Shown piece after piece: positions 10,684 through 40,105 of a stretch of DNA of 40,105 nucleotides. Source of the DNA: Bacillota bacterium (GTDB lineage: Bacteria; Bacillota; Clostridia; Christensenellales; UMGS416); assembly GCA_016281935.1 (NCBI GenBank), contig JAEEJN010000080.1, positions 1 through 40,105 of the forward strand, in the 5' to 3' direction. How positions within the stretch are numbered: the first letter of the stretch is position 1; each line of letters starts with the position of its first letter. The position numbers and the translations under genes are program-made. The notes under the pieces are model-generated. The model was not told the origin of the DNA and did not search any database. It saw nothing but the letters and a program-made list of their open reading frames with translations.

Positions 10684-12132
10684 CTATTTAGTGCCGGTCA
10701 GTGCCACACCGTTGACATAGAGCGTGTAGCCGTTTGTAATCACATTTTCGGCTTTGCCGTTGAATGCTGAAACATAGGAATCTCCGGTCAGCGTCCAGGT
10801 GCTTGTTTCATCCAGCACAACGGAGACGGAGCCTGTTTCTGTGGAAACGGTCTCGCCGTTGGCATTGACTATGCTGCCCCCGATCAGACCGGTGAACGTC
10901 GAACCCTCTGTCAGTTCCAAAGTCAGGCTGGAATCGCTGCCGACAAGAATCGAGCCCTCGAGTTCCTGAGCGATACCCTTCAGGACCGCGGTATTGCTTC
11001 CGCCGCTCCATCCGTCTGCACACACGGAGAGAAGAATATCGTCGGTGTCTTCGTTGACTATCTTTACGCCGTTCAGGGTGATGACGGCATTTGTGTTTGT
11101 TACGTGGAAGACATGACCGTTTTTGCTGGTGAGGCTGCCGCCGGTCATGGTGAAGCTGCTCGTACCACTTGCCGCATCACCGGACATGGACTGATAGATC
11201 ATGATGGTGTCCAGGAAAGTCGCGTTCCCGTTACAGCGGGTGTTATTAGCAGTCAGATCACAGTTGTTCAGAGTGATCGAGTTGAGTCCTTCGATGCAAA
11301 CGCCCTCGGAGAGCGTGGAGATGAGCACCGCGTTGGATACGGAAACATCTGCCGTGGAATAGATCACGGGAGATCCCAGACCGTTGGAAGTATATGTGCC
11401 CCCGTCCACGACTACCGTACCGCCGCCCCGGTCGGTCCGGATCGCTGCGGAAGACTGGCCGGAAGTCTCGACTGTCAGATTGTAGGCATAGGTCACTCCT
11501 CCGCCTGTGGTCATGATGCCTCCGGATCCGTTCCCGCTCGTATTGATGACTGTGTCATAGATATATATGGTCGTACCGTCTCCTTCAGCCCCGTTCTGTC
11601 CTCCGTTTCCTCCGTAACAGAACACTCCGTTGGCTCCGTCCGCATCGGAAGTGATCGTTCCGCCGGTGATAGTGGCCGTGGCACCGTCTTTGACCAGTAC
11701 AGCCGCATTCAGACCGTAGAAGTTACAGTTGTCTCCGCCATCCGAATCGCCGGTTTTGGTAACGGTGGGATTCGTGATTGTGACGTCATCGGATGTGCTG
11801 ATCAGCAGTGCGCTTTCATCGGGCTCCGAGCTGGCATAGGTCTGTCCGTTTTGTGTATCGGCTGCACTGATTACTTCTGCACCGGTATATTCGATGTCAG
11901 CGCTGCTGCTTCCGCCGGGAGCGCCTCCGGGCATACCGCCTCTGTTCCCGTCAGGAGGAACGCCTCCGGGGCCTCCGCTTTGATCCGAAGCATCGGCAGG
12001 TGCTTCCGCCGTTATTTCTGTCTGTACGGATCCGCTGTCCGTATCATCGACAGAAGAAGCCGTATTGCTGCATCCTGCCAGGGCGAAAAGGAGCATCAGT
12101 ACGGCTATGATCAATGCGCATATTCTTTTCAT
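10684..12132 (-). CDS. Surface lipoprotein with right-handed beta-helix repeats
   Basis: A 482-residue secreted lipoprotein. Residues 1-21 form a lipoprotein signal peptide ending in the lipobox L-A-G-C, with C21 the lipidation site. Next come an acidic/Ser-rich linker (about 22-50) and a Gly/Pro-rich flexible stretch (about 52-76). The rest is a long array of short beta-strand rungs rich in Asn, Thr, Ser, Gly and Val (for example 'ATITGGTITSDADGANGVFCYGG', 'GGTVVVDGGTYTSNG'), typical of a parallel beta-helix as in pectate-lyase-like folds and adhesins. Such proteins are often annotated as carbohydrate-binding. No catalytic residues can be assigned, so binding or adhesion is more likely than cleavage. 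It is monocistronic with its own terminator. GGAGAT precedes the ATG. Confidence 0.75.
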   Translation of the reverse strand: MKRICALIIAVLMLLFALAGCSNTASSVDDTDSGSVQTEITAEAPADASDQSGGPGGVPPDGNRGGMPGGAPGGSSSADIEYTGAEVISAADTQNGQTYASSEPDESALLISTSDDVTITNPTVTKTGDSDGGDNCNFYGLNAAVLVKDGATATITGGTITSDADGANGVFCYGGNGGQNGAEGDGTTIYIYDTVINTSGNGSGGIMTTGGGVTYAYNLTVETSGQSSAAIRTDRGGGTVVVDGGTYTSNGLGSPVIYSTADVSVSNAVLISTLSEGVCIEGLNSITLNNCDLTANNTRCNGNATFLDTIMIYQSMSGDAASGTSSFTMTGGSLTSKNGHVFHVTNTNAVITLNGVKIVNEDTDDILLSVCADGWSGGSNTAVLKGIAQELEGSILVGSDSSLTLELTEGSTFTGLIGGSIVNANGETVSTETGSVSVVLDETSTWTLTGDSYVSAFNGKAENVITNGYTLYVNGVALTGTK

Positions 12133-19515: not shown

Positions 19516-20991
19516 ATGACGGACAGAAAGAGAAAAGGGACACAGAACAGAAACCGCAGGAGCGAGACCAGAACGACGGGAAAAGGCCGGCCGAAGGCAT
19601 GGATCTTTCTTTCCATCGCTGCGCTGATCGTTCTTGCCGGTATTTTCATGCTGTGGCATTCTCTGCAGGACGGGACCGAACAGGGGACCTCTCTCAATGC
19701 CGATCCGACGCTCCTTCTGAGCGCTACTCCGACGCCGAGGGTCAGCATGGATTTCTCCTATCCGGGCATCCAGGCCCGTGATCCCGGGACGGAGCCTTCC
19801 CTGACCGCAAATCCGAACATCGTCCGTGATCTTTCCTATTTTGCCGAGGACGCGACTTTTACGGAGAAGCAGATCAACTCACCCGGCGTGTTCGGTAATG
19901 AGATCTTTTTCTCCGCGGGAACGGGGAGTCTGGATACCAACGTACTGACCAAGCTGTATCTCTACAACCTGGAAACGAAAAAGGAAGAGAAGATCTCCAC
20001 GACCGAGATCTATATGGGCGAATACTATGAGACGCTCATCAACGATAAATGGCTGGTGTATCTGGAGACGGACCACGGCAAGAAAAACAACATCTACGTG
20101 CGCAACAGAGAGACCGGACAGGTCACGCTTCTGAAGACGTGCACGAACGGAAAGCCCAAGCTCCGTCTGTCGCAGGACAACCTGATCTGGATGGAGCAGG
20201 AAGAGAAAAACGTCGACTACCTGTACATGGTCGATCTGGTCAGCCAGGAGAACCTTACGCTTTTCACTTTTGAAGACGTGGCGACCTACGGCGTTTCAGC
20301 ACCGGCGGTCTATGGAGACTGGATCGTATGGGCGGCGCCTGATCCGAACCAGTCCGAGGCCGAACGTCAGGTGGAAGAGCATTCCGCGATCTACTATCTG
20401 AACATCTCCTGCGATTTCGATGAGGAAGGAAAGCTGAAGCCGCGTATCTATACGCCCGGCACTTATGTGCACGAGCCCTATTTCAACGGCGAGTATTTCC
20501 TCTGGATCGATACGAACAAATCTTTCAATTCCAATCTGTACATAGCCGCTCCCGGTGATACGGTACCTAAGATCATCGACACCAAGGTCACAGCGTACGG
20601 CCTGGGCGATGACGTGGCCGTTTACGGCAAAGACAGCATCATCTGGCTGTATATCATCCCCACCGGAGAGACATGCCGCCTGACGTCCATGGATGAAAAG
20701 GGCATGCTACCCCAGATCAACGGACGGACCGTTGTGTGGCAGAACAACGGTGCCGGAGGCAGCAAGGATACGCTTCGCTTCAAGATCCTGACAGACGAGG
20801 ATCTGTATCCATACGGGAAACCTGAGATCGATACCACGCCGAATCCGTATCTCATCGTGCAGGATACGAAGGTCGGCGATGACGGAGAGGATGATACGCA
20901 GAAACCCGAAGATACGGCGGAACCGTCCCCGACGCCGACTGGCGGAGACGACGGGGCGCCGTCGCCTTCCCCGACACCCGGAGGCAACTGA
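19516..20991 (+). CDS. Membrane-anchored extracytoplasmic protein with propeller-like repeats
   Basis: A 491-residue protein of unknown function. Residues 1-27 are strongly basic and cytoplasmic, about 28-48 form one transmembrane helix, and the rest is outside the cell. A short Thr/Pro linker (70-75) leads into repeats of about 45-60 residues with the pattern 'G..I.W....N...LYLYNL.T...' ('LYLYNLETKKEEKIST', 'NIYVRNRETGQVTLL', 'WLYIIPTGETCRLT'), as in TolB-like or DUF5050-type beta-propellers. The C-terminal 50 residues are an acidic Thr/Pro/Gly tail with P-S-P-T-P blocks, likely a disordered wall-spanning or exposed stalk. The stop shares one base with the radA start. A role linked to RadA is not implied. 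Confidence 0.7.
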   Translation: MTDRKRKGTQNRNRRSETRTTGKGRPKAWIFLSIAALIVLAGIFMLWHSLQDGTEQGTSLNADPTLLLSATPTPRVSMDFSYPGIQARDPGTEPSLTANPNIVRDLSYFAEDATFTEKQINSPGVFGNEIFFSAGTGSLDTNVLTKLYLYNLETKKEEKISTTEIYMGEYYETLINDKWLVYLETDHGKKNNIYVRNRETGQVTLLKTCTNGKPKLRLSQDNLIWMEQEEKNVDYLYMVDLVSQENLTLFTFEDVATYGVSAPAVYGDWIVWAAPDPNQSEAERQVEEHSAIYYLNISCDFDEEGKLKPRIYTPGTYVHEPYFNGEYFLWIDTNKSFNSNLYIAAPGDTVPKIIDTKVTAYGLGDDVAVYGKDSIIWLYIIPTGETCRLTSMDEKGMLPQINGRTVVWQNNGAGGSKDTLRFKILTDEDLYPYGKPEIDTTPNPYLIVQDTKVGDDGEDDTQKPEDTAEPSPTPTGGDDGAPSPSPTPGGN

Positions 20992-28537: not shown

Positions 28538-29611
28538 TTACCTCTGTACTCTGGCGTTGCCGGCGTAGATATCCCAAACCTGTTTTTCATCCGCGGGTTC
28601 CGCATAGTCGTTCAGGGAGGTGGTGGCGAGGACTCCGCAGGCCCAGGCGAACTGGAGCCACTTCTCAGGTGCCCATCCTTTCAGGATCGAATAGAGAAGG
28701 CCGCCGGAGAACGCGTCTCCCCCGCCGATGCGGTCCATGATCGGGATCGGACGGGGCTCTTCCACGTACCAGTCGTTTCCGTCGTAGAGAAGGGCTCCCC
28801 AGAGATGTTCGTTGGCGGAGATCACCTGACGCAGCGTCGTAGCGTAGGCGGATGCGTTGGGATAGGCTTTTCTGACTTCGCCGATCATGCCTTTGAAGGA
28901 CTCGATCTTGGACGCCAGATCTTTTCCGCCGGCGTCGGGTCCCTTGAATCCCAGACAGAGCTGGAAATCTTCCTCGTTGCCGATCAGGATGTCAGCCAGG
29001 GAAGCGACTTCCCGGAAGGCTTCGGAGAGTTCTTCCTCACGGCCGGCCCAGAAGGTGGCCCTGTAGTTCAGGTCGAATGAGATCAGAGTGCCTAAGGATT
29101 TGGCCTTGCGTGCGACTTCAAGGCAGCAGCGTGTCGTTTCAGGGCTCATGGCCAGGATCAGTCCGGAAAGGTGGAGGATCTGAACGCCTTCTTCTCCAAA
29201 GATACGGTCAAGATCGAAATCGGAGGCGGAAAGCGTACGGCCCACTTCGCCTGCACGGTCGTTCCAGACCCTGGGGGCGCGAAGGCCGAAGCCGCAGTCG
29301 GCGATGTTGAACTGATGACGATAGCCCCAGGGTCCGCCCTGCGGGACAGTCTGTCCTTCATAGGCGATGTTCCGGGCACGAAGCTGTGCCTGTATGAACG
29401 CGGCGATGGGACTTCCTTCCACGAATTTGGTCAGCGCTACGCAGGGTTTGCCCAGAGAGGACGCCACGTTGAGCACGTTCGTTTCGGCGCTCGTTGCCTG
29501 AAGATAGAATTGATTGCTGTTCTGTACGGCCATGCGGTCGGCAGGCGTGATGCGCACGCCCATGCTCGTGACACAGGCAACCGCGTACCGGCAGTTCTGA
29601 CGGATTTCCAT
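28538..29611 (-). CDS. PfkB-family sugar kinase, 2-dehydro-3-deoxygluconokinase-like
   Basis: A 357-residue PfkB/ribokinase-fold carbohydrate kinase. The C-terminal anion-hole and catalytic motif is D-R-I-G-G-G-D-A-F (catalytic Asp about 299), with G-G-G in place of the common G-A-G, a variant frequent in KdgK-type kinases. The middle 'ISFDLNYRATFW' also matches KdgK, whose substrate is 2-keto-3-deoxygluconate. It is the first gene of the kinase-gnd-LarA-like operon, with AAGGAGG 11 bases ahead of the ATG. With Gnd next in line, a gluconate-type or 2-keto-sugar-acid substrate is also conceivable; no KDPG aldolase is present. It is divergent from the AraC gene. Confidence 0.85.
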   Translation of the reverse strand: MEIRQNCRYAVACVTSMGVRITPADRMAVQNSNQFYLQATSAETNVLNVASSLGKPCVALTKFVEGSPIAAFIQAQLRARNIAYEGQTVPQGGPWGYRHQFNIADCGFGLRAPRVWNDRAGEVGRTLSASDFDLDRIFGEEGVQILHLSGLILAMSPETTRCCLEVARKAKSLGTLISFDLNYRATFWAGREEELSEAFREVASLADILIGNEEDFQLCLGFKGPDAGGKDLASKIESFKGMIGEVRKAYPNASAYATTLRQVISANEHLWGALLYDGNDWYVEEPRPIPIMDRIGGGDAFSGGLLYSILKGWAPEKWLQFAWACGVLATTSLNDYAEPADEKQVWDIYAGNARVQR

Positions 29612-30660: not shown

Positions 30661-31674
30661 TCAGTTTTTCTGTTTTTCACGGAAGATCACGTCCCGCTGG
30701 ACGAAGTAGTTGAAAACGAACAGGATCACTTCGGCTATGGCTTTGGAGATCAGGACTGGGATACCGAGCGTTCCGTTGAACAATGCGAGCAGGGCGATAT
30801 TCAGCAGCAGGACGATGCCGACGAGGGTATAGTACTGGAGCAGTTCCATCCAGAGGTTTCCTTTTCTGTTTTTTACACGAAAGATCACTGTGCGGTTGAT
30901 CGTGAAATTCAGCGCGGAAGAAACGATGCGTGAGATCACGGCGCATGGCGTGCGGGTCAGACCGATCGCATAGTAGAGCAGTGCGAACAGGCCGTAATCG
31001 ACGATGAAGGAAAGCATGGAGGCGATCAGGAACCCGGAAGCGATGCCGAGCATCCGAAGCCAGCCTCTCATGCTGATGGGAAGGGGAGGCGCGGGGGGCA
31101 CGTCTTCTTCCAACTGACGGAGAACAAGGGATTCCCGCCGCAGACTGAGGAAAAGCTCCAGAAGATAGTTGCCGGAATCACCCGAGAATACGACGGCACG
31201 CTGCAGGAAACTCTGCGGGAAGCCTATGAGCGTCACGTCCGCAGGAAGGCTCTTATCCCTTCCGCCCACGATCTGCGTGAGGATCTGGAACATCCGGTTC
31301 TTGGCTTTTCCCTTCAGTTCGGATATATCCGCATGCGCAGCCCAGATCGTATTCGGCTGTGAAGCAGTCTTTTCACAGGCATTGAGAACGGTCTGGCAGG
31401 ACACGGGTGCCCGCAGAAGCAGCACGCCTCCGCAGTTCGGATCATCCAGGAGGATCCTGTTCATGGCTGTCTTTATGCTTCGCCCAAGACCGAGCGGCAC
31501 ATGATGACGGAGCCTGTGTACAGGAAGAGCATCCCACGCCCGGCGCGTCTCGTCGTCAGCGCCGTCGAATACGACGTAGAACGGAAAAACCTGTGCCAGT
31601 TCGGCATAGGTCGGATCCGGCGTCTGTCCGCTTTCAACGGAGAGGATCAACGGGAGAAGGGTTTCGTTTCCCAT
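30661..31674 (-). CDS. GtrA-family membrane protein fused to a degenerate GT2-like domain
   Basis: A 337-residue fusion. The C-terminal part (about 208-337) is a GtrA/DPMS domain with four hydrophobic helices ('FIVDYGLFALLYYAIGL', 'NFTINRTVIFRVKNRKGN', ending 'FNYFVQRDVIFREK'); GtrA proteins help move lipid-linked sugars across the membrane. The N-terminal 200 residues follow the layout of a family 2 glycosyltransferase of the usual GT2-GtrA fusion ('HVPLGLGRSIKTAMNRIL' for the H-x-x-N-x-G-K-G-x-A-L-K-T-G motif), but the metal-binding D-A-D-G-Q-H box is replaced by L-R-A-P-V-S (87-92). It is therefore probably inactive as a transferase. Its ATG shares one base with the HAD stop (TAATG). Confidence 0.82.
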   Translation of the reverse strand: MGNETLLPLILSVESGQTPDPTYAELAQVFPFYVVFDGADDETRRAWDALPVHRLRHHVPLGLGRSIKTAMNRILLDDPNCGGVLLLRAPVSCQTVLNACEKTASQPNTIWAAHADISELKGKAKNRMFQILTQIVGGRDKSLPADVTLIGFPQSFLQRAVVFSGDSGNYLLELFLSLRRESLVLRQLEEDVPPAPPLPISMRGWLRMLGIASGFLIASMLSFIVDYGLFALLYYAIGLTRTPCAVISRIVSSALNFTINRTVIFRVKNRKGNLWMELLQYYTLVGIVLLLNIALLALFNGTLGIPVLISKAIAEVILFVFNYFVQRDVIFREKQKN

Positions 31675-32357
31675 TATCGGACACCCATCATTTTTTTGAG
31701 TTCTGCCAGGCCGGGAAGGACCGCATCAGGCTGAACTTTTCCCGTGAAGGGCCTTCGGGCACGGTTGATCCATACGGTCTTCATACCGGCGGCAGCCGCG
31801 CCTTCCACGTCATAGATCAGAGAATCTCCGACATGGAGGACTTCGTCGGCAGGCAGGTTCAGGATGCGGAGCGCGGCTTCAAAGATCTCTTTTCTGGGCT
31901 TGTAGCAGGAGACATCCTCGCTGCACAGGACCGGTACGGAAGGAAGATTGGCGAAGGAGAGCGCGCTTTCCAACGGCTGACGGTCCGCGTTGGTCAGGAT
32001 GAGAACGGGGAGGGGAAGCTTTATGAAAAACAGTCTGGCGTCGGGATAGACCTCGGGCTTAGCCGAGGCAGTATCCATCAGTTCCGCCAGTTCCGCGGGA
32101 TCCGCATCGGATCCTACGGCGCGCAGAGTCTGGCGCAGAGCCTCTTCTTCCACCGTACGCAGAGGAACGAAAGAAGATTCCGTATAGGATTTCAGATAGA
32201 AGGCGTGAGCTTTTTCCCAGAGGATCCTGGCTGCGTCCTGGGGCAGGCAGAGACTGTTCGCCGTTTCAGAGATACGACGGCAGACTTCCATCATGACAGA
32301 ACTGTCTTCACGGACAATCGTGCCCCCGAAATCCAGCGTGATAGCTCGAATCGCCAT
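31674..32357 (-). CDS. HAD-superfamily hydrolase
   Basis: A 227-residue haloacid-dehalogenase-like protein with a helical cap (type IA). Motif I is D-F-G-G-T (9-13): the nucleophile D9 is kept, but the usual second Asp, the general acid of phosphatases, is Gly. Motif II is the Thr of L-T-N, motif III a Lys in Y-K-P-R-K, and motif IV is G-D-S-L-I-Y-D-V. The 'DxGGT' variant occurs in a subset of HAD proteins of unknown substrate, so phosphatase activity is uncertain. The AAAGGAG site and a consensus promoter precede the ATG. It is the first gene of a two-gene operon with the GtrA fusion. Confidence 0.88.
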   Translation of the reverse strand: MAIRAITLDFGGTIVREDSSVMMEVCRRISETANSLCLPQDAARILWEKAHAFYLKSYTESSFVPLRTVEEEALRQTLRAVGSDADPAELAELMDTASAKPEVYPDARLFFIKLPLPVLILTNADRQPLESALSFANLPSVPVLCSEDVSCYKPRKEIFEAALRILNLPADEVLHVGDSLIYDVEGAAAAGMKTVWINRARRPFTGKVQPDAVLPGLAELKKMMGVR

Positions 32358-38501: not shown

Positions 38502-38545
38502 TATGACTCTGTTAACCCTTATTATTTCCAAGGAGGATAATAAAC

Positions 38546-40105
38546 GTGGCGAAGAAGTATGTGTACCTCTTCACGGAAGGCCGTGCCGACATGCGTGAGC
38601 TGTTGGGCGGCAAAGGCGCCAACCTGGCTGAAATGACCAATATCGGTCTGCCTGTACCTCAGGGCTTTACGATCACCACCGAAGCCTGCACCCAGTACTA
38701 CGAAGACGGCCGCCAGATCAATGAAGAGATCCAGGCGCAGATCAATGAGTACATCGTCAAGATGGAAGAGATCACCGGCAAAAAGTTCGGTGACAAGACG
38801 AATCCTCTTCTGGTTTCCGTGCGTTCCGGTGCCCGCGCTTCCATGCCCGGCATGATGGACACGATCCTGAACCTTGGCCTGAACGAAGAAGTCGTGGAAG
38901 CGATCGCCGAGCAGTCCGGCAATCCCCGCTGGGCTTATGACTGCTATCGCCGTTTCATTCAGATGTATTCCGACGTCGTCATGGAAGTAGGCAAGAAGTA
39001 TTTCGAGCAGCTGATCGACGAAATGAAGGAAAAGCGCGGCGTGAAGCAGGATGTTGAACTGACCGCCGACGATCTGAAGGAACTTGCCGAGCAGTTCAAG
39101 GCCGAGTACAAGGCCAAGATCGGCACCGATTTCCCCTATGATCCCAAAGAGCAGCTGATGGGCGCCATCAAGGCCGTGTTCCGTTCCTGGGACAACCCCC
39201 GTGCCAATGTCTATCGCCGCGACAACGATATCCCCTATTCCTGGGGCACTGCCGTCAACGTCCAGTCCATGGCTTTCGGCAACATGGGCGATGACTGCGG
39301 CACCGGCGTCGCCTTTACCCGCGACCCCGCCACAGGTGCCAAGGGCCTCTTCGGTGAATTCCTGACCAACGCTCAGGGCGAAGACGTCGTAGCCGGCGTC
39401 CGCACCCCCATGCACATCACCGAGATGGAAGAGAAGTTCCCCGAAGCTTTCCAGCAGTTCGTCAACGTCTGCAAGACGCTGGAAGAGCATTACCGCGACA
39501 TGCAGGATATGGAGTTCACCGTCGAGCACGGCAAGCTGTACATGCTGCAGACCCGTAACGGCAAGCGCACGGCTCAGGCCGCTCTGAAGATCGCCTGCGA
39601 TCTCGTGGACGAAGGCATGCGCACTCCCGAGGAAGCGGTCGCCATGATCGATCCCCGCAACCTGGACACGCTCCTGCATCCCCAGTTCGACGCGAAGGCC
39701 CTGAAGGCTTCCGCTCCCGTGGGCAAAGGCCTGGGCGCTTCTCCCGGCGCTGCCTGCGGCCAGATCGTCTTCACAGCTGACGACGCGGTGGCCTGGGCTG
39801 CTAAAGGCCACAAGGTCATCCTGGTCCGTCTGGAGACCTCTCCCGAAGACATCACCGGCATGAAGAGCGCTGAGGGCATCCTGACCGTTCGCGGCGGCAT
39901 GACCTCCCACGCGGCCGTCGTGGCCCGCGGCATGGGCGAGTGCTGTGTTTCCGGATGCGGAGACATCACGATGGACGAAGCCAACAAGCGCTTCACTCTG
40001 GCCGGCAAGGAATATCATGAAGGTGACTTCATCTCCATCGCCGGTTCCACCGGCAACATCTATGACGGCGTGATCCCCACGGTCGACGCCACTATCGCGG
40101 GCGAG
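38546..40105 (+). CDS. ppdK: Pyruvate, phosphate dikinase, 3' end cut by window edge
   Basis: The first 520 codons of PPDK (full length about 875), which interconverts pyruvate, ATP and Pi with phosphoenolpyruvate, AMP and PPi. It starts with GTG at 38546 behind AAGGAGG and reads V-A-K-K-Y-V-Y-L-F. Visible parts are the ATP-grasp domain ('LLGGKGANLAEM', 'SVRSGARASMPGMMDT', 'TRDPATGAKGLFGEFLTNAQGEDVVAG', 'LYMLQTRNGKRTA') and the swivelling phospho-histidine domain 'GGMTSHAAVVARGMG' with the catalytic His at 455. Codon use is strongly biased to C-ending codons, more than in neighbours, which suits a highly expressed gene. The frame has no stop up to the window end. Confidence 0.97.
   Translation, partial: MAKKYVYLFTEGRADMRELLGGKGANLAEMTNIGLPVPQGFTITTEACTQYYEDGRQINEEIQAQINEYIVKMEEITGKKFGDKTNPLLVSVRSGARASMPGMMDTILNLGLNEEVVEAIAEQSGNPRWAYDCYRRFIQMYSDVVMEVGKKYFEQLIDEMKEKRGVKQDVELTADDLKELAEQFKAEYKAKIGTDFPYDPKEQLMGAIKAVFRSWDNPRANVYRRDNDIPYSWGTAVNVQSMAFGNMGDDCGTGVAFTRDPATGAKGLFGEFLTNAQGEDVVAGVRTPMHITEMEEKFPEAFQQFVNVCKTLEEHYRDMQDMEFTVEHGKLYMLQTRNGKRTAQAALKIACDLVDEGMRTPEEAVAMIDPRNLDTLLHPQFDAKALKASAPVGKGLGASPGAACGQIVFTADDAVAWAAKGHKVILVRLETSPEDITGMKSAEGILTVRGGMTSHAAVVARGMGECCVSGCGDITMDEANKRFTLAGKEYHEGDFISIAGSTGNIYDGVIPTVDATIAGE

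Follow-up and report, generated by a model that had tools for sequence, protein, structure and literature searches.

A GT2-GtrA fusion stripped of most of its conserved glycosyltransferase residues and a paralog with the opposite loss in related genomes

Results

The window analyzed here is a 40,105-nucleotide stretch of DNA from a Bacillota bacterium of the class Clostridia (contig JAEEJN010000080.1 of assembly GCA_016281935.1). On its minus strand, positions 30661..31674 encode a protein of 337 residues that starts with ATG, contains no internal stop and joins a putatively non-catalytic GT2-derived domain (residues 1-205; 31060..31674, minus strand) to a GtrA_DPMS_TM membrane domain (PF04138, residues 215-331; 30682..31032, minus strand). 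We refer to this fusion, and to its counterparts in other genomes, as copy B. Directly upstream lies an ORF for a HAD-family hydrolase (31674..32357, minus strand), and because its TAA overlaps the ATG of the fusion (TAATG), the two genes are probably co-transcribed. Also nearby are a convergent AraC-type regulator gene on the downstream side and a divergent MFS transporter gene on the upstream side. The HAD gene is not a conserved neighbor: the genes upstream of copy B vary between genomes (an oligoendopeptidase-like gene, as read from its sequence, in genomes G001 and G006), no gene context is common to all copy B genes and no conserved operon partner was found in the window's family. Elsewhere in the window, positions 28538-29611 (minus strand) encode a PfkB-family sugar kinase without an aldolase part, whose match to a KHG/KDPG aldolase/sugar kinase fusion model of 580 residues spans model residues 243-579, and three long ORFs (10684-12132, 19516-20991 and 38522-40018) have no Pfam match at E<=1e-8.

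Codon use supports the annotated frame throughout the fusion. Its two halves score log-odds of 0.18 and 0.39 per codon, compared with 0.15-0.27 for the neighboring genes, and the remaining two frames of the same strand score negative, in agreement with a preliminary description of this DNA, made from the window sequence alone, that had reported an intact frame and normal codon usage. The GtrA domain reaches 61 bits against a PF04138 cut-off of 26.1 and is the only Pfam domain above cut-off in the protein; it displays three hydropathy peaks, and four long helices in a low-confidence model.

The N-terminal half is harder to recognize. Pfam reports no match to PF00535 (GT2) in the window protein at E<=1 and none in three other copy B proteins at E<=0.01, and the sole NCBIfam match, to a polyprenyl-phospho-GalNAc synthase, is sub-threshold (E 0.061). 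Over its length the N-terminal half aligns with the GT2 domain of common GT2-GtrA fusions, and it scores 36 bits against a model built from the GT2 domains of active fusions, where the best of 1,200 shuffles (200 for each of six copy B domains) scores 5.4. Compared profile to profile, the copy B GT2 halves of six genera match the same model with a probability of 99.9% over 181 columns. This above-chance similarity argues that the N-terminal half is a homolog of the GT2 domains of polyprenyl-phosphate GT2-GtrA fusions. Decay of this half is graded among the six copy B proteins, which score 97, 59, 36, 36, 10 and 8 bits against the active GT2 model. A hydrophobicity-pattern test lends weak support to the same relation: the window domain (0.644) exceeds all 60 of its shuffles, narrowly (maximum 0.641), and shuffles reach the values of G001, G002 and G005 in 5/60 and that of G003 in 3/60.

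Searched against the PDB, a full-length profile of the six proteins finds the GT2 enzyme ArnC (PDB 9hwj) as its best match (E 4e-4, positions 19-208), whereas a profile of the N-terminal part alone gives no significant match, ArnC again being the best (E 0.47); ArnC further differs in being an active enzyme. Structure prediction, which the preliminary description had proposed as a check on the GT2 half, gave two single-sequence AlphaFold models of low confidence (pLDDT 45 and 51) in which the alternation of strands and helices is compatible with a GT-A fold and the segment LRAPVS, discussed below, forms a loop after the fourth strand. A Foldseek search of the PDB with the low-confidence N-terminal model returns no hit at E<=0.001; the matches listed include Rossmann-type dehydrogenases and others and no GT-A protein, and we treat them as uninformative.

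To score the loss of catalytic residues, we used a reference of 51 active fusions, which are canonical by construction (52 loci picked by motif, one identical row dropped), and counted the positions conserved in at least 90% of them, 48 in GT2 and 14 in GtrA. The window protein keeps 13-14 of the 48 GT2 residues, depending on the alignment, the other copy B proteins keep 6-19 and the active fusions 45-48. Of the 14 GtrA residues the window protein keeps 12, the two changes being A to S and V to I, while the other five copy B proteins keep all 14 and the active fusions 11-14. The earlier view of a GT2-derived domain without its catalytic residues on an intact GtrA domain thus holds.

The residues lost from the window GT2 half comprise the N and K of NxGKG, the DxD together with its Q and H, the arginine of GxR, DTQTGLR and the SHF loop. 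The replacement of DADGQH by LRAPVS (residues 87-92; 31399..31416, minus strand), described earlier, is confirmed by alignment to the active fusions, in which the segment falls on the box with a two-column gap and the exact pairing of residues depends on the aligner. The landmark loop pointed out at the same time, H57-T69 or HHVPLGLGRSIKT (31468..31506, minus strand), does align with the active-fusion loop HxxNxGKGxAxKT, of which it is a relic; the changes of N to P and of K to L or I recur in copy B of G001 and G006, and the loop HxVPLG(L/I)GR is common to three genera. No D-x-D occurs anywhere in the window protein, acidic-x-acidic being found only at positions 40 and 189, and the relocated DxD motif that the preliminary description had raised is therefore absent. 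The former metal box contains different residues in every one of the six copy B genera. An aspartate occupies the DTQTG position in four of the six proteins, and four of six also keep the VxDG aspartate, which by our alignment corresponds to Asp39 of PfDPMS, a base-binding position according to the excerpted text of PMC5526996. In PfDPMS the residues of DADLQH bind metal and donor, and the variants D89A and D91A are described in the same excerpts as having some residual activity (PMC5526996). Because those variants retain activity, loss of the DxD alone is no proof of inactivity; here several motifs are lost together, from which we infer that the window GT2 half is probably catalytically dead. 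Two trivial origins of the lost box can be set aside. A compensated frameshift is ruled out, since DADGQH is absent from both other frames, and a single-gene oddity or assembly error is ruled out by a loss common to six genera.

That loss is spread across the window's family, sampled here by eight genomes in seven genera. Copy B is present as one gene in each of six genomes and thus six genera (the window genome, G001, G002, G003, G005 and G006); the two genomes of the seventh genus, g5, give a stand-alone GtrA as their best match. The family alignment called for in the preliminary description accordingly places the loss of catalytic residues at the level of the clade. A search of 200 relatives matched 71 at E<=0.001 and supplied 29 loci beside the window's own, namely 22 active fusions, four copy B genes and three stand-alone GtrA genes. 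Class-wide, 75 of 391 genomes matched; examination covered 29 retrieved loci, the window excluded, all of which have the DxD box and 28 of which have DTQTGLR, and two further matches from a second family, both of them dead.

The second family, f31 of the same order, encodes a shorter dead-GT2-GtrA protein in 9 of 18 genomes, distributed over genera g37 (6/6), g79 (1/1) and g98 (2/2). Active fusions occur in g316 (2/2) and in G197, and none of the 18 genomes was seen to encode both a dead and an active fusion. In four of five contexts examined a tandem GT2 protein is encoded upstream of the dead fusion on the same strand, and in all five a thioredoxin gene is nearby, an arrangement that hints at another partner in this family; at L160:7626-11285, the dead fusion sits between a tandem GT2 protein of 754 aa and the thioredoxin gene. 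In a third family, locus L142 (G028) encodes a GT2-GtrA fusion without DxD (VESGRGF) whose GT2 half scores 106 bits. Locus L144 (G045), a 562-aa frame, encodes a fusion with DYDGGY in the box (D-x-D kept), 29 of the 48 GT2 residues and an additional C-terminal stretch of about 150 residues; judged by these residues, it is probably active. One scan with the active-fusion alignment found no viral relatives, and a dead GT2-GtrA fusion is not named in the entries listed by a search of open-licence papers.

A first tree of the GtrA domain places all but one of the six copy B domains with five stand-alone GtrA proteins, that of genus g5 among them (95/93); a larger tree, limited by short and long-branched domains, does not resolve this grouping and does not reproduce the g5 placement. 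AU tests reject neither a single clade of the six copy B domains (p 0.5) nor one clade of copy B with the second family (p 0.165). The number of independent GT2 losses is at least one and probably two or more.

Conservation of the two halves is reversed in the dead fusions. Among active fusions, GT2 is the better conserved half in 1276 of 1323 pairs (means 0.464 vs 0.363 for GtrA; three near-identical pairs of 1326 were dropped), in contrast to none of the 15 copy B pairs (0.237 vs 0.361) and none of the 28 second-family pairs (0.432 vs 0.790). GtrA conservation is alike in copy B (0.361) and in active fusions (0.363), indicating that the relaxation is limited to the GT2 half. Invariant positions within residues 1-205 number three over the six copy B genera: M1, P153 and G165. 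The genomes searched contain no relative of the window gene, nor any copy B pair within the family, close enough for dN/dS. In two close second-family pairs, the dead domain gives dN/dS values of 0.214 and 0.107 and GtrA 0.019 and 0.037; no such GT2 excess appears in close active-fusion pairs, whose GT2/GtrA values are 0.179/0.342, 0.236/0.340, 0.166/0.147 and 0.042/0.028. The second-family values indicate that the dead domain is retained, loosely. Together with a frame kept in six genera they bear out, indirectly, the earlier statement that the gene is not a pseudogene.

A profile search of the family with the active fusions reveals a second protein, copy A, which consists of a live GT2 domain followed by a hydrophobic tail of 112-135 residues. 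Copy A is complete in six of the eight family genomes (G001, G003, G004, G005, G006 and G007). In G002, 41 residues of a copy A-like start run into the contig end, and in the window genome, whose assembly is 88% complete, copy A was not found, possibly by chance. None was found in the second family. Copy A proteins keep 40-44 of the 48 GT2 residues and 1-3 of the 14 GtrA residues, and Pfam assigns them PF00535 and no GtrA; in its losses, copy A is the mirror image of copy B. The tail is less conserved than the GT2 of the same protein in 15/15 pairs and, in one close pair, its dN/dS is 0.654 vs 0.191 for GT2. Compared by hhalign with GtrA, the tail gives a probability of 3.1% (E 0.014), a result that leaves its homology to GtrA without support, so that copy A could be a protein that never had this GtrA. 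In copy A of G006 (L173:1228-2259, minus strand) and five proteins like it (alignment A5), the tail is conserved, matches no Pfam model and contains the invariant residues W312, W313, Y324, G333 and P336 (G006 numbering); it may be a new membrane module. Rooted with other GT2s, the copy A GT2 domain groups with those of the fusions (97/83), its placement within them being weakly supported. Copies A and B of G006, the latter at L040:7367-8458 (minus strand), lie about 20 kb apart on the same contig. One origin for both copies is not rejected (AU p 0.164, on very long branches), and a single duplication may lie behind them.

Discussion

The preliminary description had suggested a sensing, binding or scaffolding role for a dead transferase domain on a flippase-like partner. 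That interpretation has changed because relatives of the window genome carry copy A, a live GT2 without GtrA that is invisible in the window sequence alone; this paralog with the opposite loss is what is new here. Ligand sensing or binding loses its place in the proposal, since no putative ligand site is conserved, while scaffolding or docking survives as the best guess.

The reading that we favor, and to which we give even chances, is that the window gene encodes a GtrA-type translocase bearing a dead GT2 domain, with the jobs of a once bifunctional protein divided over copies A and B and the dead domain serving as a cap or docking surface. An ancestral GT2-GtrA fusion would have loaded a sugar onto polyprenyl phosphate and then moved it across the membrane. 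The family would now split these jobs between copy A, with its live GT2 and a tail lacking the GtrA signature, and copy B, with its GtrA and dead GT2. Synthesis of the lipid-linked sugar at the inner face would most likely fall to copy A, or to a different GT2 in genomes without copy A, and copy B would use its GtrA half to bring the product outward for a GT-C transferase, in keeping with the excerpted account of GtrA proteins as thought to carry lipid-linked sugars outward (PMC7389260). The dead GT2 of copy B, seemingly retained under relaxed yet purifying constraint, may form a cap or a docking surface in the cytosol that contacts GtrA, its like or copy A, plausibly by the same contacts that such enzymes make when they assemble. 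The catalytic domains of GtrB, an active relative, are described in the excerpted text as packed in an apparently rigid way within its tetramer (PMC4728340). Against such a split in the window genome itself stands the partner, copy A, which is missing or undetected there. The lack of a copy A in the second family, the unsupported homology of its tail to GtrA, a common origin of the copies that the trees do not establish, the varied gene context of copy B, the poor structural models and PDB matches and the two altered GtrA residues of the window protein count against the reading as well.

Copy B resembles active Clostridia-like GT2-GtrA fusions (PF00535-type GT2 plus PF04138) in domain order, length, GtrA signature and residual GT2 profile similarity, and departs from them in having lost DxD, DTQTGLR, NxGKG and SHF and in its reversed conservation of the halves. 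The polyprenyl-phosphate GT2 enzymes GtrB of Synechocystis and PfDPMS likewise place a cytosolic GT2 before membrane helices, and the membrane part of PfDPMS weakly matches the copy B profile (E 0.012); as excerpted, however, both are enzymes with a DxD (PMC4728340, PMC5526996), which the window protein lacks. With the stand-alone translocases of lipid-linked sugars in the GtrA family, such as GtcA, the window protein shares PF04138 above cut-off and 12 of the 14 fusion-GtrA residues, whereas GtcA is described as a small four-helix protein (PMC7389260, excerpted) and the window GtrA bears a dead GT2 of about 200 residues at its N-terminus.

A bolder form of the proposal is possible, and we put it forward tentatively. 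A duplicated synthase/translocase would have lost opposite halves in its two copies. These would now act together as a hetero-oligomer that sets the dead GT2 of copy B beside live GT2s of copy A and passes their product straight to GtrA. Such an arrangement would explain both the family-wide retention of the dead domain and its recurrence in the second family, where the partner would be another GT2, encoded next door.

Rather unlikely, in our judgment, is that the GT2 half is a disappearing vestige that serves at most the folding or insertion of GtrA and whose endpoint would be a GtrA without GT2. The three invariant positions within residues 1-205, the graded decay from 97 to 8 bits and the grouping of the stand-alone GtrA of g5 with five of six copy B domains all fit a domain on its way out. 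Yet that grouping is not reproduced in the larger tree, some 200 residues stay in frame in six genera, with a shorter version in three more, and the dead-domain dN/dS in the two close second-family pairs is not near 1.

The GT2 half might instead act as a gate for GtrA, binding a nucleotide sugar or a lipid phosphate but not catalyzing transfer, and survival of the VxDG aspartate in most copy B proteins (four of six), together with the loop shared by three genera, would suit a binding site; we consider this improbable, as none of the putative ligand sites is invariant over six genera and the box residues differ in each genus. It might also still be a glycosyltransferase, either metal-independent or with relocated residues. 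GT-A enzymes without DxD exist, and the residual activity of the PfDPMS variants points the same way, as does the aspartate that four of the six copy B proteins have at the DTQTG position. The window protein nevertheless has no D-x-D and no conserved substitute, and box, DTQTGLR and SHF loop have gone together, which makes continued catalysis very unlikely.

Natural fusions in which either half is switched off offer a direct test of the coupling between synthesis and translocation: should the dead GT2 prove necessary for GtrA function, or bind the live paralog, that coupling would be physical. They would also exemplify reciprocal loss in a membrane protein with two functions, the dead half at least recurring in two families. 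For annotation they counsel caution, as the labels 'glycosyltransferase' or 'GtrA', when assigned by fusion architecture, may cover one activity of two.

A possible user of the lipid-linked donor at the outer face is encoded in all eight family genomes, each of which contains one PMT_2-matching ORF of about 1.1-1.3 thousand residues, often with two matches and possibly a double GT-C transferase (G000:C10:4154-4573 in the window genome). YfhO was found in one of the eight. At G001:C25:39190-43236, genes for a stand-alone GtrA, a GT2 and YfhO adjoin one another and, judged by its parts, this would be a complete three-component glycosylation set.
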